From NCBI RefSeq assembly GCF_013426205.1, contig NC_089425.1:4568032-4632031 (forward strand): a DNA stretch of 64,000 nucleotides, given 5' to 3'. Both the position numbers and the translations under genes were made by a program. Below are positions 6,911 to 64,000 of this stretch, piece after piece. The DNA comes from Metarhizium brunneum. Taxonomy: Eukaryota > Ascomycota > Sordariomycetes > Hypocreales > Clavicipitaceae. How positions within the stretch are numbered: the stretch's first letter is position 1; the number at the start of each line of letters is the position of its first letter. The notes beneath the pieces are model-generated. The model was not told the origin of the DNA and did no database searches. It saw nothing but the letters and a program-made list of their open reading frames with translations.

Positions 6911-7079
6911 GTTGCCGGCGTCCCGAAGTAGAAAAGAACGGTAGTGCGTTGCTGACAGGGGCGATTCGGGACTTACATACAATCTACCCCCTGTAAGTTT
7001 AGCCACCAGTGACTTCTAGTAGGTGTTACAGGGGCTAAGGGCCCTATCAGGCATCGTCTAGGAAATTAGTAATACTTTA

Positions 7080-8900
7080 GGTGGAGTAAGAGGTATAAAA
7101 AAAATAATATATTTTTTATAAAAAAATTAATACTTTTAATTCTAGCTAATAAGTTATATATTTTTCTTATATTATTTTAATAATAATAATTTAATAAAGT
7201 ATTAAATATATAAGCTTTAATAAAAAGTCTTTTAATATAACTTTCTAAGCTTTATAAATAGCTTTTAATAATATTTTACTTTTAGGCTTTTTTATTATAT
7301 ATATAGTATTAATTTAATACTTTATTTAAAGCTATATATACTTTATAAAATTAAGATTAGTATTATATAATAGCTATAAAATGAATTTCTTACCTAAAAA
7401 TATCTTCTTAATTATACTAATAATTAATTATACTTTATATAATAGTATATTATTTTATTAAAGCTTAAAGGTCAGATTCTAAACCTAAAAATCGTATAAA
7501 AGTAATAAAATTTACTATAAGTAAAACGTAGCTATTATTATACTTTATTTCTTATCTTATATAATATATATACCCTTTTAAAAGCCAATAAAGCAGGCCT
7601 AAAATATCTAATTATTAGCTTATATTTTTATCTTATTAAATTCCTTAATATTATTATTTATAATAAGTATATTAGTCTTATAGGAAATTACTAGGAAAAA
7701 GGCTTATAACTTATAAATATTATTATAAATCGCTTATTACTACTAGTTCTATTATACCAGGTTTTATTAGATTAAATCTAATACTCCTAATTTTTAGTAA
7801 TTAAATAACCTTATTATTATATAAAATTAAGGCAAAAGTATTATATATTATAGCTAAGCTTATAATTTAATAGCTAAAATTACTTATAAGCACTAAGATT
7901 TATTAGGGTAATAAATATAGCTTAAGCTAAGAAAAGTTAAAGGAAAATAAGGCTATTATAAAGCTATTTTAGTAATAAAAAGCGCTTTAAATATAATAAA
8001 ATCTAAATAGCTTTTTTTAATATAACTTAAATTTTTATAGAAATAATAAGCAGCTAGCTATAATTCCTATAAGTAAGCTTAATTAAGTAAAGAATTATAT
8101 ATTAAACCTATATATAGGAAAGATTTAATATTATTACTATATTATTAATAAAGTAATTACTAGTATTATATAAGATTTTAATTATAATCCTATTTTTATA
8201 TATTATTATATTATATTTTTAAAGGTAATAATAAGCTTTAATAAAAAGCTGGTTTTTAAGGGCTTAATAGCTAAAAAATATTAAATTAATAAGAGGATTT
8301 AAAGGGTAAATAAAATAGGAATTTATTACTAATTTATAATATTATAATTTATATTTATAACTTTAAAATCTTTATTATTATTATTAATATTAATAGTATT
8401 ATAAGCAAAAAAAATTTATATTATTATAAGGCCTTTAAGTATATATAATAATACTAAATTTAGGCTTTTTAGCATGGTATTAAAAGGTATATTAAAATTA
8501 AATTTAATAGTATTATAAGCTTTTAAAAGTAACTTAAAGCTACTTAACTTAGAAGTTACTTATTTAAGTATATTATAAAAGTTTATAATAAATTACTTAA
8601 TTAAGGTATAAAGTATACTAGAAAGTAATTTTATAAGGGGTTCTAGTAAAATTACCTGCTTTTAAGGCAGTACTTAAAGTATTTTTAATAGCTAAAAACC
8701 TATATAAAAAAAGGTGTTTTTTAGAGCCTAGGCTATATTATATAAAAGAAGGTTAAAGTAATAAGTTAAGTACTATTTATATATAAATCCCTTATAAATT
8801 TTATCTTATTAATTATATAATTTTCTTAAATTTAAAAAATTAATAAAAATACTTTATTTTTTATAACTGATTTTTTTATAGGATTTATACAAAAAAAAAT
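7080..8900. mobile_element. RIP-mutated AT-rich relic of an unidentified repeat
   Basis: About 1.8 kb of almost exclusively A/T with surviving CC/GG doublets (AAGG, TTAGG, CCTT), as in the RIP-mutated retrotransposon copies of this window. No frame survives and I could not recover diagnostic residues of a transposase or reverse transcriptase. The edges are sharp against normal-composition DNA: GGCATCGTCTAGG at about 7050 on the left and CTACCCTGGCAGC at about 8915 on the right. It does not obviously match the Ty3-type element. Confidence 0.6.
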
Positions 8901-9750
8901 TTTAGTGTATAAGCTACCCTGGCAGCTATTAGTAGATTACCTTTGATAACCTTATAGCTGCCCCCACCTGTTAAATATCACACCTGGCTAAACTTTCAGG
9001 GCTTAAATTGTATGTCAAGGTAGCTTCCCGAGATTTTCATGGGCACGCCGATTACACCGACTCTTCTACTAACCCTAACCCCAACCGTCTCTGGCTGCCA
9101 CGGCAGCCCTTACGTAGACCTGCGGTCTACCAGAAACACGACCCGCACATCCCGCTGACAGGTGTGAGAATAGATTGTGAGCGCCTTTTAGCTGATGTCA
9201 TGCTAGATGGTGTCTTGTTTACGTTGCGATAGAGTCGCGTCTAAGGATGGGACCCGGACTCGTGCTACACCTTTACTTTTCGGGTAAGGGTGCAGCCAAG
9301 TTGCGACCCGAAAAGTAGGGGTATAGTATAAGTAGCTGAATATAAAAGACCAGAAGCTAAGGCAGAACAACTTAATATACCACATTCTCACTAACCTTTC
9401 TTCTACTTAGCAATACCCTAATCTCCCTTTTCTTCTAGTTTAACAAGATATTCGAGGAAGGGGGAGGAGATGCGGAAGGGGATACTCTGCGGCGACCGAA
9501 GGTATTCCGGTATATTATCTAAGAAAAAAGCGCATGCGGAAGACCATCGTTTCATGACGAGTTAATACCGTTACACCCACCCGAATATCCGCCTCTGCTT
9601 ACAATTTCCCCTGCGCAACCGAACTCTAAAAATACATTCATAAAGAAGGTGACCCCGGCCAATGTCCCAATGGCATCTTCTTATCGTAGTCCAGAGAAAG
9701 GCCTCCTTCGTCTCGTATACAACACCAAGCTCGACCATACTGGCCATAAC
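8901..9750. other. Intergenic, with a short hairpin repeat
   Basis: No gene is recognised. The notable item is the inverted-repeat sequence at 9256-9322, listed separately. The last 300 bases should hold the 3' flank of the zinc-cluster regulator. Confidence 0.4.
9256..9322. repeat. Hairpin and inverted repeat, partner of 12482-12527
   Basis: TACTTTTCGGGT and ACCCGAAAAGTA face each other here about 20 bases apart, forming a 12-bp stem. The right arm reads GGGTGCAGCCAAGTTGCGAC then CCGAAAAGTAGGGG. The reverse complement of 12527-12493 is nearly the same sequence. The left arm, starting ACTCGTGC, also matches 12483 onward in direct orientation. Confidence 0.65.
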
Positions 9751-12481: not shown

Positions 12482-12527
12482 TACTCGTGCCGCGCCCCCA
12501 CTTTTCGGGGCAGCGACTTCGCTGCAC
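12482..12527. repeat. Inverted-repeat partner of 9256-9322
   Basis: It contains CCCCCACTTTTCGGGGCAGC followed by GACTTCGCTGCACCC. Read on the minus strand it begins GGGTGCAGCGAAGTCGCTGC and continues CCCGAAAAGTGGGGG, about 80% identical to 9287-9322. It lies about 180 bases upstream of the regulator's start codon, so it may be inside the promoter. Confidence 0.6.
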
Positions 12528-12539
12528 CCTCTTTGAGGG

Positions 12540-12900
12540 TGCTCCTTACTAAAACGCTTTATTAGTAAAACGCGCTAGTTTTATTTTATTCTAGTACTTT
12601 TTTACTTATTTAATAGTTAGTATAATAAGTTGTATTAAATTTAAGGTTAATTTATATATTAAAAAAACTATTTAATATCTTAAAAATAATTTAAAAGTTA
12701 AGTAAAAAAAATAATTTAATATTTTAATAATTTTAATTTTTAGTAATTTTATTTTATAATTATATAAAATTATATATATAATATAAGTATTATATAAGCG
12801 TAAAATCTAAAATAATATTAGGCTATACTAGGCCAAGAATAGTAAGAGACTAGAAAAGTAGACCGTCTGTACGCGCTATATATATAGTTTAACCAGAAAG
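12540..12900. repeat. Partly RIP-mutated repeat fragment related to the right-arm clusters
   Basis: An AT-rich stretch whose part at 12760-12880 (starting ATATAATATAAGTATTATAT) recurs in heavily mutated form at about 53620-53710 and 60240-60330, and inverted at about 59670-59780. This copy is less mutated: it keeps AGGCCAAGAATAGTAAGAGAC and TAGACCGTCTGTACGCG where the others are A/T only. It shows what the repeat looked like before RIP. Confidence 0.6.
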
Positions 12901-13541
12901 CAAGTAGGCGTTAGCGTTAATAGTACAAATAGAGCAAGTTACTGCCGAACCTTCACAAGGTAGCTTCGTTGCATACTTCAGAAACAACTTGGCTATTGCT
13001 TTCCTTGATGGCTTTAGCAACTCACGTATTACAGATCCTGAAGCTTGTTTGCAGAGTTGAAGGTTGTCCCGCTATAGGCAAGTGAATGTGCTACAAGGAC
13101 AACATCCGCCGGTTTGGACACGACGCTGTTGCTCATGCCACCGTACCCTAGCATGATACCACTGCTCGTTTTTGGAGGCTTTAGGGCATTTGTTTGGGCA
13201 TTGCACGTCTGGTTGGTCGGTTGGCTCTTGGCTTGGAGAATTTTGTTGCTTAGTTGGAGCAATTTGGACGCCGAGGCAACCGTAAAAGCTCCATTATTGA
13301 GATGAAGAGTTAGCAAGTAAAGTTCCCATTATTTCAGGTTCGCTGTGCAATCGTGCGGCAAATCCGTCGGGATCCCGATCACCCCCGGGTCCTGGGTCTT
13401 CCACGTGGCTATGGCATGGTCATAATGTAAGTGCCGTTTGTGCCAGCGCCGAAAAACAAACCAGCAAGCTGTTCAAGACATGAGCAACGTTATACTCTGT
13501 ATGTATTATTAGCTTGGCCCTCCAAGAATGTGACAAAGTCG
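12901..13541. other. Intergenic, no gene recognised
   Basis: A 95-codon minus-strand frame at 13029-13316 has no recognisable motif. Nothing else is evident here. Confidence 0.35.
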
Positions 13542-49766: not shown

Positions 49767-52091
49767 TCATCGGGACATGAAGATGACCAATTCGTCGTAA
49801 TCCTTCTCTAAAAGCTCGTCCCATGGCCGAGTGTCTTGTGGTTTCAAGCTTTGACGCTGTTTGTGGGCTGCTTTGAATGACTGCTCGGCTAGCTCAGGCT
49901 TGCCTCTTGCCAGATATAGTTGGCCCTGTCTGAAGATTGTCCGAGCATGTTTGTGCTTGTGGAATGGGCGTCGAGCAAAGATTCTGAGTGCTCGACTGAG
50001 ATAATCCCTGGCATCAGGTCGTTAAAAGCAGCTGCTAAAGTACCTTCAACCGAACTTACTGCGCCTTGTCAAATTGACCCTGACCCATAAAGTCTTGGGC
50101 GATTTTATGGCCTACGTCACCAATTCGGTGATGCAATTCTCCAAGAGTGATCGACCACTGGTTGAAACATCGCAAATGACAGTCCAGTGCGCGATCTAGA
50201 TTTCCGAGAGACAGATAGACATTGCCGATACCGTAGAGAACCTTTCCTGTTCTACAACTAGATTAGCTTCGCTTCGAATCAGCGACCAAAAAGACTCACT
50301 TGAATGATTCTGTATCGTCGGGGGCGTAAGCAGTCTCAAATATTTCACGCATACGGTGTAGTGCCTCTAAGGCTGCTTGGTGGTTTCCTTGGATCCAATG
50401 CACCATTCCAATATTCGGCAATGGCCACCCAAGCCACTTCTCATCGTAGTCAGGAAGTGACTGGTATGTGGAAATGCTCTGCTGGAAAAAGTCCAGTGCT
50501 AGAGAGTACATGCTGTTCATGGCATAGGCCACACCGACTTCATTGTAGACACAGCCGAGTTCATAATCAACTACTCCCTTACCATCTGGTGATACTCTTT
50601 CACGCATCAAGCTGAGCCACATAAGATTGTGCTGCAGACTTTCTTGTGGATCATTGGTCTCGTTGGCGGCCGAACCTTGGTTGTTATGGCTTTCACGAAG
50701 CATTTTGGCTACCTTCTCGCTTGGCTTCGTATAATTGAGTGTCTCGCAAATGCTTTGGGCGAGTCTGCAAAATGGCTTCGATTCCTGTGGAAATCCTCTC
50801 TCAAACCAGTACCTGTTCCAACGTCAGTATCGCAACATGGGGACGAATCGAGGACATACCACCCGGCGTCGTTGAAGAGACAAGCTGCTTGCTCTGATGC
50901 ATTGACATTTCGAGTTTTGAACATTTCCTCGTAGTGCTGATAGATTCGGCCTACGTGTGGGAAGATGGCGGAGCATGCTTCGTATCTTGTAGTATTAAAG
51001 CGGTGTTCAAGTGGCTGATATATCCAAGCCTGTGAAATGATCCCAAGTGCCGTCACAAGCGCTTTCATCCGCATTTCGGGACTCAGAGACTCCCGCACAA
51101 TGTCTTGATAAATACGATGCATGCGGAGGGAATGAGTAGACTCGTTAAAAGAGATTAGTGAGGCCAGTTGCGGTTTGGTTTGAGCATTATTCAGCTCAGC
51201 ATGGTTTGTGGGGTATGCCTTAGGTTGTGCTCGACTTGAGTGGTCGATCAAAATCTTCTGAGGAATGCCCTCAGGATTCAGAAATGAGAGTATATAAATC
51301 AAACATTGCGTGTGCTCGTCCAAACATGCAAGACCAATCATTGAAGTGATCGATACGGTTTGCACCGAGTGCTTCTTAGGCTTGCTATCAGCTGATACGG
51401 CCTCGAAGCCATGCTGCTTCAGCAGGTTAAGCATCGTGTCATAAGTAAGATTTCGGCTTGACATGGTGCTGGCTATGGTAGTCATGATGATGGGAAGCCC
51501 GCCAGCCCATTCAGCCACAGCCTTGGCAGATGCTTGGGAGCCTCTGAGGGCTTCCGGAGAGACAGCACGTATAAACTCGAGAGACTCGGATAAGGAGAAT
51601 GGCTCGAGATCTAATCCACGTTGCGCAGTATAAATATGAGACTTTGACAATGGATCCCGACTTGTGATTAGAATAGATCCGATGCCGGTGGTAGGCCAGA
51701 AATCTTCGATTGTGCCCCAGTCGTTTACGTTGTCGAGTACCAATAGCCATGGGATTTCGTTGTCAGGGCTGCCGAGGGGTGCTTCGAGATTTTTTACGGG
51801 ATTGCAGAGCCATCCTTTGACTAGCTCGCATGCTTCTGCTAGATCTTGGGCTTCATTCTTGTCTTGGAGACCAAGATCAACCGCTATGCGTGCAAAATCC
51901 TCAAGTAGGATGTTGCGGCTGTCCCCAGTAACCCAGAAAATTGCAGAAAATTCATCTTGCCTCGTGAAGACATACTCCGAAGCTCGCTCCGTTTTTCCAA
52001 TCTCTCCTGCACCGCAAAGCGCAAATGTCTTGAGGTTTCTGGCTGAATGGATTAATTCTTCACCGATCAGCGAAGGAAAGATCTCAGGAAG
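49767..52091 (-). pseudogene. NOD-like receptor, 3' part (NB-ARC and TPR domains), split by a transposon
   Basis: Exons on the minus strand: 52091-50860, 50812-50300, 50251-50060 and 50007-49767, all with GT-AG introns and a continuous frame. The NB-ARC domain has the P-loop GAGEIGKTE (about 51990-52015), Walker B WLLVLDNV (about 51730), ILITSRD, and the GLPL-like WAGGLPIIMT. The C-terminal half is tetratricopeptide repeats (YELGCVYNEVGVAYAM, IGNVYLSLGNLDRALDC, QGQLYLARGKPELAEQSFK), ending in PWDELLEKDYDELVIFMSR, a common end of fungal STAND receptors. The proteins act in non-self recognition and programmed cell death. The frame runs without a stop right up to the element boundary at 52092, and its missing 5' part resumes at 54504. 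The exons themselves look undamaged. Confidence 0.9.
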
Positions 52092-54503
52092 TGTGACAAG
52101 GGCTTAGTAGAGGGCTTAGAGTATTTACTTAATTTATCTAATAATAATTTTTAATATTAAAAGTTTTTAATTTTTTTTAAAGCTTTAAAAAATTAAAATT
52201 ATTTATTTATATAAAAAATTAATAAAAACTTTTTATTTTAATTTTATAATTATAATTTTTATATAATTAATATTATTTTTATATAATATAAGTTTTTTTT
52301 TTAATTTAATTTTAAATTAATATTTAAATTATAATAATAATAATAATAATAATAATAATTTATAAAACCTAATATTAAAAGGTTTAATTATTAATATAAA
52401 AATACTTTTATAACTTTTATAAAACCTAATTAAAATTAAATATTTAAATACTAATATTATAAAATAATAATTTTTTATAAATTTAATTAAAAGTAAAAAT
52501 ATTTACTTATTAATATTATAAAATTTTTTTTACCCTTTATAATAAGAGGGAAAACTATAATATAAAGCTACTTTTTATTAACTAGCTTTATAATATTCTT
52601 CTTAATTTTTCCTTTTATTTTTTCTTTTTTTCTTATTTTTTTAGTTATTTTATTAAGTTTATTAACTTTTTTAATATTTTTAGCTTTTAATAATATATTT
52701 TTTTTCTTATTAATATCCTTTATAATAATAGCCTTTTTATTACCTTTTTAGGCTTATTAGTTTTAATCCTTAAAGTTATAATAAGTAATTTACTTATATT
52801 AAGCTTATTACTTTTTTTAATATTAATTATAATTATAATTATTAACTACTAACTAAGTTTAATATTAGTAAGCTATAATACTTTAGAGAGTAATATAAAG
52901 CTAAAAACCTATAAGTAGCTATATTATTTATAAAGTAATTTATTTAAATTAAGTATATAAAGGTAAAATAAAGTAATTATAAGAAAAATAATAGGTTTTA
53001 TAAAAGTTAGGTATAAACTTTATTAATTTATATTATATTAAATTACTCTAAGTTTTTTAGGGTATAACTTATATAATTATAAGTTATTATTATTATTATA
53101 TTTTTAACACGTAAAGTTATAGGCTTTTACCAGTATATAAGGTTATAAATTACCTTTTAAGCTAGTAAATTTAATATATTATAATATATATACTATTTTT
53201 TTAATTATATATTATTATTTAATTAGCTAGGTATAGCTATTAATTATATTATTAATAGGTCCTAGTAATTAACTAGCCTTTTTTTTATTTTTTTATTATA
53301 ATTTAAAAAATAAATTTTTTTTTATTTTTTATATATTTAATTAAAAATAAAATTATTTATTTATTAATAAAAAAAATTTAATATATTTTTATAATTTAAT
53401 AAAAATTAATTATTTATTAATTAAAAATAAAAAAATTTATATTTTTATTTAAAACATTATTATTTATAATAAAAGCTTAATAAAAAGCTTAAAATATTTA
53501 TTTAATTTATTTAATAATAGTTTTTAATATTAAAAAATTTTAGTTTTTTTTTAAATTTTAAAAAATTAAAATTATTTATTTATATTAATTTATAATTAAT
53601 TTACTTTATAATTAAATAAAATTATATATATAATATAAGTATTATATAAGTATAAAATCTAAAATAATATTAGGTTATATTAGGCTAAAAATAATAAAAA
53701 ACTAAAAAAGTAAATTATTTTAATATAATTAATATTATATTATAGCTGCTAGCTAAAGCTATTTTATAATAGCTTTAGTTATTATTATTATGAAGGTAAA
53801 CTTTATATATTATAGTAACTTTATATTTATAACTTATATTAAATTATATTAAAAACCTAAAATACCTATATATATAGTATATTTATATAGTTTTACTTAT
53901 ATTTTAAGTTAGTTTTATTTCTTTTTATTTAAGTTATTTACTTTTTTTATTATTAAAACCTTATTATAATAATATAACTAATTATAAATTATTACCCTTA
54001 TATATATATATTTCTTATAAGTATTTATTAATATTTATTATAGCTATTTATAAATAATAATAATATAAGCTTTAAAGGTACTAAAAAACCTAATATAAAT
54101 AAGTTATTTATTATAACTTTTAGAGGTAAAAAGCTAATAAAACTTAAAAAGTAATATAATTAATATTAAATTAAAAGCTTTTTATAATAAAAAAAATAAT
54201 TATTATAAAACTAAAAATCCTAATTTAATAAAAATTAAAAAAAATAATAAAATTATTAAAAATATAAAAAAAAAGGCTTTTAAAATTATAAAGCTAAAAT
54301 ATAATTTTAAAAAAGCTATTACATTAATTATAAAAAAGCTTAATAAAACTAATAATACTAAAAGTAAAGCTATTTAATAAATTTATATTAATAGTTTTAC
54401 TTTTTTTAAAAGGTTATTTATTTATATAAAAAGTTAATAAAAACTTTTTATTTTAATTTTATAATTATAGCTTTTATATAACTAATATTATTTTTTTATA
54501 ACA
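52092..54503 (-). mobile_element. 2.4-kb RIP-mutated element inserted in the NOD-like receptor gene
   Basis: The left edge starts TGTGACAAGGGC, which is the reverse complement of the 3' end of the clean solo LTR at 15008-15195. The first 194 or so bases follow that LTR along its full length with C-to-T and G-to-A changes. The right edge ends TATAACA, the mutated start of the same unit. Flanking pentamers are GGAAG (52087-52091) and AGAAG (54504-54508), an imperfect target duplication differing by one G/A. Removing the block and one pentamer brings the two receptor halves into frame. The internal DNA is nearly pure A/T with no frame. The right terminal unit (about 53467-54503) appears to be the LTR with about 840 bases inserted at its TATAAATA centre. 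Confidence 0.85.
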
Positions 54504-55866
54504 AGAAGCAAGCTCTTATTGATTAATCGAAGAATATTATCGCGTCCAAAAAAAGGAGATATTCGTGTTTGTGATCTGATTGAGAAACAAGGGATGGACA
54601 GCTTAGGCTTTTCTAGCTCCAAGTGTACCACCTCGTATGAGAACTGCGATGAGTAGCCAGCGCTTGCCGATGGCGTCCTGGAATTCTGCTTCAAATTCTG
54701 CTTCGGTTCCTCGCTAGGGAGTGACAAAAAGCGGTTCTGTTCAGACCCTTAGGGAGTATCAGAAGCTGAGGCGTTCTCGCTCGATGAACCCACGATTCGT
54801 TGCATCATTCTGCTTCTGTGGCTTCTCAGACTATGTATATCCCAACCATCTAGGACACTGCCATCGATGTGCACCTCGGAACGCGCTGCGAGAGAGTCAG
54901 GAGGCATCGGGATGGGTAATGACTTACCATCAAAGTCTTGAGGCGTTGACGCAAGTTTTTGTTTTGATACTGCGGCGTTAATCTTGCAAGCTATTGCTTT
55001 GTACAACTCCCCACCAATCTCTACTTTGCAAATATTTTCATGATTGCTCGAGATCCCGTAAAGCATAGCAGCAGAATTTGAAGGAAAGCTTGCCAGCTCT
55101 TGTGTGACCACCTGCTGGTTCATGAGTAGTTGATATTAATACGTATTATGGAGCAATTTCACCCGACGAGATCTTGCAAATTGGGCCTTCAATTTCACGC
55201 CTCGATATTTGCTCTCAGTAGTCTCAAAAGTTGAAATCACTTGACCTCCAAAATTCGAGAAGCCTCGTGACAACCGCACAACCGCTCGATTATCCTCTTT
55301 TGTGAAAGACAGGAACGAGAATGGAGCAGCACTCGCTCTCACTATGCTTTCGACAATATTGAGGTCGAGTCGACTGGCGTCTTCAATATGTGGGGTTCCA
55401 AGAAACACAACCCCAAATATATGATCCAGGACATTGTTGTTCTCATACCTCTTCTCAGCCATGTTTGCATAGGCCTTGGAGACGTCAGCTGAGTATGCAT
55501 TCGTCCGTAGTGGGAGATATACACACCTGTTTCCATATCAATCCACCAAGGCTTTGGCATACTATCAGGATGGACCTACGAGGCTCCTTTCTCTTTTAGT
55601 GGCAGCTTGCATTTCACACTGACTAGTGCTTACATCTCTCGGATTAAGTCGGTGAAGTTCTGCCGGAAGCACATGGCTCTGTTGTAGTAGTGACTGCAAA
55701 ATGGGCTGCCCCTTTATAGCTTCATAGACATAGTGCCAGATACAGACACTCTGGCCATGAGACTTCTGCACATCTTTGAGCCATTCTCCCGATGAGGTCT
55801 TCCAGTCGGTAGGGCGAGGAAGACCAATGCCAGGGACGATTACAACGCTGTAATCAATTAGTCCGC
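54504..55866 (-). pseudogene. NOD-like receptor, 5' part (alpha/beta-hydrolase effector domain)
   Basis: Minus-strand exons carry an alpha/beta-hydrolase N-terminal domain: VVIVPGIGLPRPTDW (about 55850), the nucleophile elbow CQSLGG (about 55545), and VVFLGTPH (about 55400), followed by VTQELASFPSNSAAMLYG and NHENICK (about 55090-55010). This is the effector found at the front of many fungal STAND proteins. The part then reaches FFGRDNILRLINKSLL at the element edge (54504). In such proteins a GRD-type motif lies just before the P-loop, and that is exactly what continues at 52091. An intron at about 55180-55110 with a weak GTGAAA donor is needed. The start codon is not resolved and may lie in an upstream exon above 55866. 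Confidence 0.82.
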
Positions 55867-57162
55867 CATAACAACTGCGGCATGGGAGACTCGCTTCAAC
55901 GCAACATCAACTCCAGAGTATATAGCTGGAGGATAGAAGAGATTCAATGACATGGTCTCGATGGACCAGAAGCAACGAGCCAACGAGTAAGCAGCAAAGG
56001 TAAGGGGCAATATGCGGATGCGATCTTGATGTGCAAAGCTCGCTGGTTCGAAATCCGGTTCACCCATAAAGGAGCAGCAGCCGACCATATAACCAGGTCG
56101 CGACTCAGGCCAGAAAGTCGACAGAGATTCCAGCCAGCTTGAAGACAAGCGCATGTGACGCACAAAGACGGAGAAGAAGGCAAAGCTGCATGCAGGAAGC
56201 CTTCAGTCGTATTCGGCGATGGCCAGGCTAATCAGAGTGCTGAGTTCTCAAGTAACGGAAATGAAGGAGCGCCTAATGTGCCGTGAAGTCTTCGATTGAC
56301 TGGACGATGCCAATGGAGTCGCTTGGACATACACACCGCGTGCGTGCCCTTCAGCCCCTTTACCAAGTAAAGAAGCAAATATCGGCAAGACAAGGCCACC
56401 AATCCTGAGCCGCAACGCTACGCCCATATTAAGAGAGCGACAGTTCACGCCACCCTCCACTTTCCTCTCTGCCGGTGAGCCTCTTTCAGCCCTGGTGAGG
56501 GGAGTTGCCTGCCTGCCGCGTGGTTGCTCATGCAGTCTTCCCTTTTTGCAGCTTTTATGGAGCCTATAAACCGGTTCGTAACAGCCCTCATTTGGCTGCG
56601 ATGAATGTGATGTAGTTCTTTATAATAGTGGCGGTTGTTGGGACATCCATTATCGTGCAATTTCTTAGTAAAGTTTAGTACGTTGACCCTTAGTATCCGC
56701 AATCTTATTGTTTTTATAGCCCTGTCAATACACTTTCGGGATGCGGCACGGCCCGTGAGGCTGAGACGGGTGCGGGGTTGATAGCGGCTTGGCATGCTGC
56801 CTAGGACGATTGAGAGACTAGATGTGACCAACTAGGTCACCTCTACGCACATCAAGAACGCTCGTGTCGCATTGCGTGCAATGCAGGGCCCGACTGCGAA
56901 AAGGCTCCCACGTTGAATAAATCGTCGTCAGCAACGTACACTGAGTTGTCGTAGCCTGACGTATGCCGACATTGGCGTTATTATGACGTACCTCTCCAGT
57001 CCATGGTGAGGTGTCCGTTAAGTAAAAATCTCCAGTGGGGTCATTGTGCATTTCTTGATCAAGTGATCACGCCTCAGACGCGCTCTTGGCTGGATACGGG
57101 CTATCCAAGTCTTAGAATTTGATCAAGCTATAGCGGCAAAAGTATCACTCCATTGAGAAATT
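55867..57162. other. 1.3-kb region, possible receptor 5' exon, otherwise nothing recognised
   Basis: Minus-strand frames at 55858-56163 and 56445-56831 have no motif. The first may contain the missing start of the receptor gene. Confidence 0.35.
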
Positions 57163-58844
57163 CTAAATTTCTGAACTAGGACCATTATCTTGCACACGAG
57201 GTGGCATAACTCGTGGAGGGAAGTGAGCTTCGAAGGCACTCAGGAACTGGAATATTAAATCCTCTCTGCCCGCCTGAGCCACTATACTGAGTCCGTACGG
57301 TCTTCCATCTTCTGGCATGACTCCAAGGGGCGCGGTCGCGATTGGGTAGCCTGTGTGCTTGTCAGATGAGTTTTCAATCAAATGAGGGATTAGGTTGCTG
57401 GACCATACCGGACGCAGCTGAGATGAATACCATAAGGCTGTCCAAGGAGAAGGCAAGCACATTCAAGTTCTGCTCGCGGAACAGTTTGTCGATGCCATTG
57501 TCTTTGGAAATCAACTTTATCCGCTCCTTGACAGTCTCATATACTTCTTGTGATGGAGGATCCCGCGAAGCTTTCAGCAACTGGTTCTGATCTGGGTGGC
57601 CTTTAGGGGAATTCCGGTCAGCATACTACAACCATCGCAGAGCGTGATACATACTCTCGGGCAGTTCCACCTCCCTATGGTCCAAGTTGAATTTGATGAT
57701 ATCTTCAATCGCTTTCAAACCTGGAATCTTGACCTCGTCGAGCCAGTTTTCAACTGCTTGCCTGCCTTCGTACGCTTTTGGTAGTTAGTTTTTGGTCATT
57801 GGGAGACCTCCAGACACTATATACACATGATGACGTCGATCGGATTCTGCCCCTTATACCACAAATCGGTGGCGGGCGGTATGTTGACCGGAGAGACTAC
57901 AGGTCCTTTGGTGTCATGTTTCTTAATGCGCTCAAGAGCTGTGAAGTAGATTTCATTCTACATAATTATTAGCTTTTACGATAAGAACAGGATTAGGATA
58001 CGCACCATCTGTTTTAGTATGATCTCGTCTAGGTTTACAATTTCGGGTGAAGAGACCATTTTGTAGGATCGAGAAAGCCTATCCGGAGCGAATCGAAATT
58101 CTTGGTCAGGAACTTTAGATAGCCTTCCTCTGATAAAAGACCCCGCTTCTCTTCCGTTAAAGCAGTCTGACTCAGAAGGGCTAGATCTGCGGTTGATGTA
58201 GCAAGACCGCCTACGACATCTAGCTCTATGGAACTTTGGAAAACACCATCCATGCCCACAGAGTCAAGTGTGGGTTTCAAAGCATACAATCCGGCTCTTG
58301 AAGCTGGCATGACTATGGAGCCAATCGACTCGGTGCCCAGAGACAACCGTGCATAGCCTGCTGATACGCCGACTGCAGAGCCTGTCGAAGAACCACATGG
58401 ATCCTGAAATACTGGTCAGCCTGGGCTGGCATGAGAGATGATGGGTTGATCGTACACTCTGTCCGAGGCCTGTCTCATTTTCCTTGCGAGCGAGATATGC
58501 AGACTGTGTTTGTACTCCGATCGCTGACCATCCATTCGAATTCACATCGCCCCTATGGTGAATTAGACTTGCGAGGAAAACTTGAGGGCGCTAGCTTACT
58601 TGAAGTTGCAAAACTTCTACATCTTACATATTAACGCAAGAACTCACAGGATTGCTCACGTTCAAATTTGTCTTGATAAGCACGATGGCATCCTAAACGG
58701 GATCAGCTAGGTTACCAGGGTAGATTGTGAAATGGCAAACTTTGACCAGTATAGGTATACCGTGAAATGGACTCCTGACACGACCTGCTGTTCGCTCGCG
58801 GTCGAGTTGCGCCGAGCGCTCCCTCAGAATATGGTTTGGGACAA
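57163..58844 (-). pseudogene. Amidase-signature hydrolase, 5'-truncated and decayed
   Basis: Minus-strand blocks of a fungal amidase-signature enzyme. At the top edge: ILRERSAQLDRERTAGR then FHGIPILVK with the catalytic Lys (about 58740-58840). Then LIKTNLNKFCNFKG across short introns, NGWSAIGVQTQSAY, and GSSTGSAVGVSAGYA with the cis-Ser/Ser pair (about 58390). Then ESIGSIVMPASR, HPDQNQLL and GYPIATAPLGVMPEDGRPYG, ending at the TAG at 57163. Three lesions are seen. The frame starts inside the gene, at the element edge (58845). About 25-30 residues expected between the catalytic Lys block and the KTNL block are missing. A one-base shift occurs at about 58058, after DPTKW. Several introns are still recognisable, so decay is recent. 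Confidence 0.82.
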
Positions 58845-59925
58845 TGTTACACAGAAATAGGCTGGTTACACAAGGGTTATAGTTATAAGATTAAAGCTAA
58901 AAGCTTTTATTAATTTTTTATATAAATAAATAACCCCTCTGGAAAAGGTAAAACCGCTAATACAAATTTATTTGGTAGCTTTAGCCTTATAGGCCTTTTT
59001 AGCCTTTTTAGCCTTTTTAGCCTTAGCTTTATTAGCCTTATTAGCCTTTTTTATAGCTAGTTTTATAGCTTTTTTAATATTATATTTTAGTTTAGTATTT
59101 TTAAAGGCTTTTTTTTTTAAATTTTTAATTATTTTTATAACCTTTTTAATTTATATAAAATTAGGATTTTTAGCTTTAAAATAAGTATTTTTTTTATTAT
59201 AAAAAGCTTTTAATTTATTAATAGCTATATTACCTACTAGGCTTTATTAGCTTTAACCCTTAAAGGTTATAATAAGTAATCTACTTATATTAGGCTTTTT
59301 ATTATACTTAGTTATCTTATTATTATTAATATATACTTTATATATAATAGTTTATAAATAGCTATAATAAATATTAGTAAGTACTTATAAAAGATATATA
59401 TATATAGGGGCAGTAACTTACGATTAGTTATGGTCTTAATAGCAGAAAAGGCAAATAACTTAAATATAGGATTAACTTAAAATACAGGAAAGACCTTATA
59501 AATATACTATATATATAGGTATTTTAGGTTTTTAGTATAACTTAATATAAATTATAATTATAAAGTTAGTAGGTTTATATAATAATATATAAGGTTTAAT
59601 TATATAATAATAGCTAAAGCTATTATAAAGTAGCTATAACTAGTAAGCTATAATATAATACTAATTATACTAAGATAATTTACTTTTTTAATCTTTTATT
59701 ATTTTTAGCCTAATATAACCTAATATTATTTTAGATTTTATACTTATATAATATTAGTATTATATATATAATTTTATTTAATTATAAAGTAAATTAACTA
59801 AATATTAATATAAATAAATAATTTTAATTTTTTAAGGTTTTAAAAAAATTTAAAAATTTTTAATATTAAAAATTATTATTAAATAAATTAAATAATTATT
59901 TTAAATTAAATTTTTATTATAAATA
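58845..59925 (+). mobile_element. RIP-mutated element related to the solo LTR, inverted relative to 53467-54503
   Basis: It begins TGTTACACAGAAATAGGC, and its first 95 or so bases follow the solo LTR at 15008. The last 110 or so bases (about 59815-59925) follow that LTR's 3' half in mutated form. Between them about 870 bases match 53570-54411 in inverted orientation. Near 58975-59060 the minus strand reads as a Lys/Ala-rich repeat (AAGGCTAAAAAGGCT units), which looks like the C-terminal tail of a former protein. It truncates the amidase gene. Confidence 0.75.
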
Positions 59926-60756
59926 ATAATTTTTTTTTTAAAAATATAAATTTTTTTATTTTTAATTAATAAATAATTAATTTTTATTAAATTATAAAAA
60001 TATATTAAATTTTTTTTTATTAATAAATAAATATTTTTTTTAATTAAATTTATAAAAAATAAAAAAAACTTTATAATATTAATAAATAAATATTTTTATT
60101 TTTAATTAAATTTTAAAAAATTATAAAAGTATTTTTATATTAATAATTAAATTTTTTAATATTAGGTTTTATAAGTTATTATTATTAATTAATTTATTAA
60201 TTTATAATTAATTTATTTTATAATTAAATAAAATTATATATATAATATAAATATTATATAAATATAAAATCTAAAATAATATTAGGCTATATTAGGCTAA
60301 AAATAATAAAAAACTAAAAAAATAAATTATTTATATATATATTATAATATATTAAATATACTAGTATAGTTAGTATTATATTATAGCTATTAGCTAAGGC
60401 TATTTTATAATAGCTTTAGCTACTATTATTATAAAGGTAAATTAACTTTATATTTATAACTTATATTAAGTTATATTAAAAACCTATATTACAACCTAGT
60501 TATAAGCTACAGTATAGGTTATAGGTTAGGCCGGCTATATAAGCTATAAAATAGCGTAAGTATAGCAGGTAATAAATTAATAGTTAAAATAAGCTATTAA
60601 TAGGAGAGAGTTTATTAATTATTTAATAAACTTTAAATAAACTAATAATATATATATAATTATAATTTATTAGAATTTTAATAAATAATAAATAAATATT
60701 ATAATATATAAAAACTCTTAAATTTATTTTATAAATAAATTTTAATTTTTTAGTGT
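59926..60756. repeat. Nested RIP-mutated repeat fragments
   Basis: 60185-60480 repeats 53590-53880 in direct orientation and 59550-59815 in inverted orientation. 60485-60756 is a diverged partial LTR of the Ty3-type family (TTACAACC, then TAGGCCGGCTATATAAGC, then a TTTATAAATAAATTTTAA end), which the next LTR abuts directly. No frame is open. Confidence 0.65.
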
Positions 60757-63883: not shown

Positions 63884-64000
63884 TAGGGTTAGGGTTAGGG
63901 TTAGGGTTAGGGTTAGGGTTAGGGTTAGGGTTAGGGTTAGGGTTAGGGTTAGGGTTAGGGTTAGGGTTAGGGTTAGGGTTAGGGTTAGGGTTAGGGTTAG
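63884..64000 (+). repeat. Telomere, (TTAGGG)n
   Basis: 117 bases of uninterrupted TTAGGG (about 19.5 units), starting TAGGGTTAGGG and reaching the window end. The G-rich strand is the plus strand, so this is a right chromosome end. No variant units are present. Confidence 0.99.

Follow-up and report, generated by a model that had tools for sequence, protein, structure and literature searches.

A single-copy subtelomeric NOD-like receptor gene of Metarhizium brunneum, very probably split by a RIP-mutated composite LTR insertion

Results

Organization of the locus

We analysed a 64,000-nucleotide stretch of the insect-killing fungus Metarhizium brunneum (hereafter the window; NCBI RefSeq assembly GCF_013426205.1, contig NC_089425.1, C4:4568032-4632031) together with the whole genome, 37,771,916 bases in 7 contigs, which was searched for related copies. 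The window contains a NOD-like receptor (NLR) gene on the minus strand (approximately 55953-49767) whose two halves are separated by an insert of 2,412 bp at 52092-54503. The gene codes for an NB-ARC/DUF7779/TPR receptor and is single-copy, the next genome match being 31% identical. The window closes in telomere repeats, (TTAGGG)n, at 63889-63996, which places the receptor gene about 8-14 kb from the chromosome end. An initial annotation, made from the sequence alone, had described an NLR gene cut by a mobile element that carries repeat-induced point mutation (RIP) and has its target duplication still visible. That description is borne out by the flanking pentamers, the TG...CA ends of the insert and the spectrum of its substitutions, and we have little doubt that a single-copy subtelomeric NLR gene was split here by a RIP-mutated composite insertion of a long terminal repeat (LTR) element.

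The C-terminal half of the receptor (49767-52091, minus strand) comprises four exons, 52091-50860, 50812-50300, 50251-50060 and 50007-49767. Spliced, they are open for 725 codons up to the stop and contain the P-loop, NB-ARC, DUF7779 and TPR regions. Pfam matches were obtained for DUF7779 (1e-16), for NB-ARC (PF00931; 1.1e-5, 25.3 bits against a cut-off of 23.5), whose P-loop is readable in the sequence as GAGEIGKT, and for the C-terminal repeat domain, with TPR_12 (1.7e-9) and TPR_1 (4.3e-8) both above cut-off.

The N-terminal half (54504-55953, minus strand) represents the region ahead of NB-ARC. Its putative exons are 55953-55901, 55847-55634, 55592-55527, 55474-55163, 55111-54928 and 54885-54504, with several splice sites predicted and two introns of merely 41-42 nt; the gene end at 55866 given in the initial annotation is too short for a first exon that would begin at 55953. 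The spliced reading comprises 403 codons with one in-frame stop, and is identical at 195 of 396 aligned residues to the relative P0008 and at 182 of 257 to P0022. It contains the motifs CQSLGG and VVFLGTPH, which may be esterase-like. A PGAP1 match of this region (E 0.025) fell below the cut-off, and no alpha/beta-hydrolase fold occurred among the best 50 rows of either fold search, whose alignments lie mainly over the NB-ARC and TPR parts and hardly reach this region. The structure prediction was made for the relative P0008 (mean pLDDT 74.6, pTM 0.51). Its best Foldseek match was 6mfv, a STAND protein with TPR, followed by Apaf-1, plant NRC3 and CED-4, all at low global TM-scores.

The in-frame stop of the spliced reading is a TAA at 54749-54751 (minus strand) in the linker of the N-terminal half. 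At its alignment column a residue is present in 10 of 12 relatives, and the remaining two begin later. Because 11 frame-keeping GT-AG pairs could excise the triplet, it is a probable, not a certain, nonsense codon. The view that the exons are otherwise intact fails on this probable stop.

Continuity of the receptor across the join

Twelve relatives, picked among at least 120 database matches, were aligned with the window protein, and both halves meet at a single column of this alignment. Residues continue across the join, with small gaps only, in 11 of the 12; in the remaining one, P0015, this stretch is absent from the gene model. The proposal that the halves fit at the breakpoints as one gene is thereby supported. 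When the N-terminal half served as query, P0022 and P0015 alone reached E <= 0.001, in a search whose length limits excluded longer relatives.

The closest relative, P0009, is 93% identical over 59% of the query and reads ...DKSLL-PEIFPSLIGEE... straight across the predicted join. It supplies the uninterrupted relative that the initial annotation had suggested looking for, and, at the level of predicted protein, it shows an empty site in a relative not known to be of the same species. The residue at the join matches the left copy of the target pentamer in 10 of the 11 relatives having one, P0009 included. Another sequence, P0005, is a 523-aa protein of M. brunneum ARSEF 3297 that is 100% identical over 72% of the query. 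It is annotated as an NB-ARC and TPR domain protein, partial, and its start lies downstream of the P-loop.

Ends, target site and family of the LTR element

The pentamer GGAAG (52087-52091) precedes the insert and AGAAG (54504-54508) follows it; as first noted, these left and right copies of the target-site duplication differ at one base, with 4 of 5 equal. The insert begins TGTGACAA and its plus-strand end is TTATAACA, giving TG...CA ends. Within it we delimited a RIP-mutated left LTR of 197 bp (52092-52288), the left part of an internal region (52289-52532, with an 85-bp similar stretch beside the LTR at locus L064), the right part of that region (53307-53465, which runs directly into the LTR in the further element copy described below), and a right LTR in two parts (53466-53585 and 54414-54503, the latter ending TATAACA). 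The two LTRs are direct and carry TG...CA ends, the inner ones changed by C>T and G>A.

The 22-base LTR terminus was found at 55 genome places with <=3 mismatches, against 0 for the reversed pattern. Twenty of the 55 were returned as loci, leaving 19 for examination once the window itself was removed. An exact 5-bp duplication follows the CA end at 12 of these 19, and two more (L050, L059) have one with a single mismatch. All 14 loci with such a duplication are solo LTRs, 194-207 bp long, and they are not AT-rich as the window copy is. This solo LTR family (within L043-L062), most members of which have 5-bp duplications, is suited as a reference for measuring RIP.

The start-to-start spacing of the LTRs is 1,374 bp in the window, or 600 bp once the nested repeat E1 (below) is subtracted, compared with 589 bp in the two-LTR copy L064. 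On the strength of the two LTRs and these spacings, we read the element, about 0.8 kb without its nested repeats, as a short non-autonomous LTR retroelement. Besides E1, the interior between the LTRs is about 0.4 kb, which would be too short for pol, and we therefore did not class it as autonomous.

Nested repeats and the second copy

The insert is composite, an LTR element holding two dispersed repeats of about 0.8 kb. E1 (about 774 bp, 52533-53306) lies in the internal region, and E2 (828 bp, 53586-54413), bordered by two copies of TTATTTATTTATAT, lies in the right LTR. The initial annotation was accordingly right about a mobile element and wrong about a single one, since E1 and E2 are nested in it. 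The reading of the whole AT-rich block as one element was rejected because each of E1 and E2 is a dispersed repeat in its own right, with ends that can be told apart from those of the LTR element. In a strict comparison of 38 loci, many carried copies of E1 and E2. The left 1,375 bp and right 1,038 bp gave 311 and 343 genome matches, respectively, counts that include chance similarity between AT-rich sequences.

Flanking repeats of >=9 bp bordered 15 of 25 E1 copies compared with 8 of 600 mismatched pairs, and often measured 11-14 bp; such repeats are a trait of non-LTR retroelements. For E2, flanking repeats were found in 2 of 7 copies, the window being one, compared with 0 of 42.

A second copy of the LTR element is located at 58845-60233, its far end being approximate, and abuts an amidase-like gene. 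E2 occupies the identical LTR site in it, with the same 14-base duplication, and no full E1 is present: in the 58.8-60.2 kb interval E1 gave no match besides one 141-column stretch. A pattern search for E2 at the LTR site matched the second copy exactly and three further places at 3 mismatches; the first copy itself was missed by the pattern. The outer edge of the second copy is less mutated, with 26 C>T or G>A changes compared with 38 in the first copy over 89 columns.

Signature of RIP

As reference for counting substitutions we took the majority base in each alignment column of the 14 solo LTRs, without the five remaining loci of the 19. The left LTR differed by 73 substitutions (40 C>T, 32 G>A and 1 G>T) and one gap; re-aligned, it showed 40 C>T and 33 G>A and no other change. 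In the right LTR, 48 of 50 differences in the first part and 38 of 39 in the second were C>T or G>A. With 72 of the 73 left-LTR differences of this type, RIP is well supported.

Base composition agrees in its limits with the insert. GC content is 0.10 inside versus 0.43-0.52 in the flanking stretches, and the index (CpA+TpG)/(ApC+GpT) is 0.09 versus 1.41-2.15 in eight flanking stretches, with a sharp boundary. Strong leakage of RIP into the exons was considered and is not shown, the dinucleotide indices of the flanks being normal.

Cytosine methyltransferase (PF00145) matches were found at two genome places. A predicted 400-aa frame at one locus (L083 98-1300, in 1,301 bases from contig C5) aligns over 100% of its length, at 50% identity, with a protein named rid1 in Drechmeria coniospora, so a putative RID-type methyltransferase frame is present in the genome. 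The solo LTRs, about 200 bp long and unmutated, are what a length threshold of RIP would spare; PMC4133081 expects no RIP below 400 bp.

Chromosomal setting

About 5 kb directly before the telomere repeats is AT-rich, and further AT-rich blocks lie at 1-1500, 7001-9000 and 12501-13000. The block near 12.7 kb holds an E2-like stretch (12723-12860), and blocks 1-1500 and 7001-9000 had no similarity to the insert at E 1e-8. By the thresholds applied, 21 of 127 one-kilobase windows were RIP-positive. The amidase-like gene (57160-58845, minus strand; PF01425, 3.3e-20 on one exon) may be truncated too, because its N-terminal side abuts the second element copy at 58845.

Discussion

Proposed history of the locus

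We propose the following course of events. A short non-autonomous LTR retroelement, with two LTRs of about 197 bp and about 0.4 kb between them, inserted just before the P-loop exon, duplicating 5 bp. Its interior now houses E1, and one of its LTRs E2, both presumably later arrivals. Since both repeats lie within the LTR element, the receptor was probably struck before they came, on the evidence of nesting only, and RIP would have affected all three. Most C and G inside the repeat boundaries were converted, and the flanking exons keep a normal composition, a pattern that points to RIP, which would have acted before meiosis. A complete receptor could then probably not be produced from the locus, a loss that, as the initial annotation proposed, might alter non-self recognition; some additional changes are present in the two halves.

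Those changes were assessed by comparison with P0009. Twenty-five replacement differences were scored, 41 residues representing the N-terminal part; 4 were unresolved, one of them (at 55950) an alignment artefact. Since the split from P0009, the window copy has gained 13 replacements compared with 8 for P0009 (p = 0.38), counts that do not demonstrate an excess of decay in the interrupted gene. RIP-type changes make up 5 of the 8 window-derived replacements lying no more than 150 nt from the insert and 1 of the 5 at greater distance (Fisher p = 0.27), which likewise falls short of showing strong leakage into the exons.

Several observations weigh against parts of this account. The splice sites of the N-terminal half rest on inference. 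P0009 is a database open reading frame with a changed P-loop; it counts as a homologue and does not prove that M. brunneum has a working allele. Five of the 19 family loci (L049, L052, L056, L060, L062) are without a convincing 5-bp duplication, the one-mismatch duplications of L049 and L056 having been discounted because their positions are unlike the LTR end. The non-autonomous class is an assignment by interior length and not by a gag/pol search, and the E1 copy of the window lacks flanking repeats. RIP would be expected to favour CpA, a preference that is weak here, with 21 of 24 CpA, 12 of 12 CpG, 21 of 30 CpC and 18 of 28 CpT sites of the left LTR mutated, perhaps owing to saturation. 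Finally, the second copy, about 5 kb off, holds E2 at the identical position of its LTR, which a simple history of insertion followed by nesting does not predict. Common descent of the E2 junctions through local duplication or gene conversion would be our guess, and the proposed history does not account for why the first copy's two LTRs differ.

Alternative explanations

Mutation of C in every context, not in CpA alone, is also what neutral drift or AT-biased decay might leave behind. Such an origin of the AT-richness is nevertheless very improbable given that just 1 of the 73 left-LTR substitutions falls outside C>T/G>A, that the flanks have a GC content of 0.43-0.52, and that solo LTRs of about 200 bp elsewhere are not AT-rich. 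We reject outright the idea that the halves were brought together by a rearrangement and never formed one gene; the surroundings are subtelomeric and AT-rich, as this would suggest, but the halves share a strand, occupy adjacent alignment columns and are continuous in 11 of 12 relatives, and P0009 contradicts it.

The receptor may have been split without being killed, with the C-terminal half persisting as a functional shorter gene (an NB-ARC fragment with TPR) from its own start. The 725 open codons and the 100% identical, annotated 523-aa protein P0005 of ARSEF 3297 argue for this, but P0005 begins downstream of the P-loop, the window copy departs from its relatives at strongly conserved residues (two L-to-P and one D-to-G), and the absence of stops is, by an estimate that was not computed, weak evidence at such divergence. 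We consider a functional remnant unlikely. Somewhat less doubtful is a recent insertion, still polymorphic in M. brunneum, as the initial annotation had supposed. It would agree with the 4 of 5 duplicated bases still equal, the open C-terminal reading frame and a relative without the insert; yet it gains no direct support, and the two nested repeats, the heavy RIP, the probable stop and the changes at conserved sites speak for greater age. P0005, the only other named M. brunneum sequence among the matches seen for the gene, stops short of the insert site and is neutral on this point. To a comparable, still minor, degree the gene may have been decaying already before the insertion. Derived changes occur in the insert-free P0009 as well, including one in its P-loop, and the counts of 8 and 13 do not separate the two copies; against this, the P0009 stretch is open, and sequence errors in its source may be involved.

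Comparison with known elements, RIP in Metarhizium and known receptor losses

LTR elements of the TRIM type are short non-autonomous LTR retroelements. The present element resembles them in its LTRs of about 200 bp, short interior, TG...CA ends, 5-bp duplication and solo LTRs, and differs in being interrupted by E1 and E2.

The review PMC7776561 places M. brunneum in the broad-host clade of Metarhizium and, judging by RIP indices, accepts RIP for M. album and M. acridum and not for that clade. In PMC4133081, RIP is described as low in M. anisopliae, M. robertsii and M. acridum and is assumed to be active in each of the three; a rid homologue is reported for three other species (PMC7776561/PMC4133081). 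At this locus, too, repeats carry C>T and G>A changes, in a clade that, according to PMC7776561, is without RIP. The M. brunneum genome paper (PMC7842015) does not use the words RIP or AT-rich, and its single "repeat-induced" stands in the title of a reference. The string "rip" occurs 8 times in a comparison of strains (PMC11457142) and belonged, at the places inspected, to RiPP gene-cluster terms. Judged by title and the start of the abstract, none of the papers listed reports RIP in M. brunneum, in a search that most subscription journals lay outside.

It is plausible, if a little short of probable, that RIP, and with it meiosis, took place in the M. brunneum lineage after its separation from the insert-free P0009 lineage. 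If so, the locus would contradict the view that RIP is absent from the M. pingshaense/M. anisopliae/M. robertsii/M. brunneum clade, and insertion sites of this kind with an empty-site relative could date RIP and cryptic sex in supposedly clonal biocontrol fungi. PMC7776561 argues from the absence of RIP for a loss of meiosis in generalist Metarhizium, a question on which the locus bears directly. Its value lies in the unmutated LTR copies of about 200 bp in the same genome, against which RIP can be read base by base, and in the empty-site relative, which bounds the timing. It also points others to AT-rich blocks, here subtelomeric, which short-read assemblies may miss.

On its own, the locus is a further example of the loss of a receptor gene through a mobile element. 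In the class of fungal NLRs described as sesB-like/NB-ARC/TPR, according to PMC4986451, NB-ARC is preferentially followed by TPR and the N-terminal domain is a predicted lipase. The domain order of the present gene is alike; its N-terminal domain is below the Pfam cut-off, and the gene is split and so probably inactive. In Podospora anserina, the pseudogenes NWDp1, NWDp2 and NWDp3 include two lost by RIP and one beside a transposon relic, according to PMC1805685, and the kind of event is therefore already known. Both cases are losses of receptor genes of the fungal non-self-recognition type. In Podospora, RIP struck the receptor genes themselves, whereas the present receptor gene has a single copy and only the inserted element is heavily affected by RIP.

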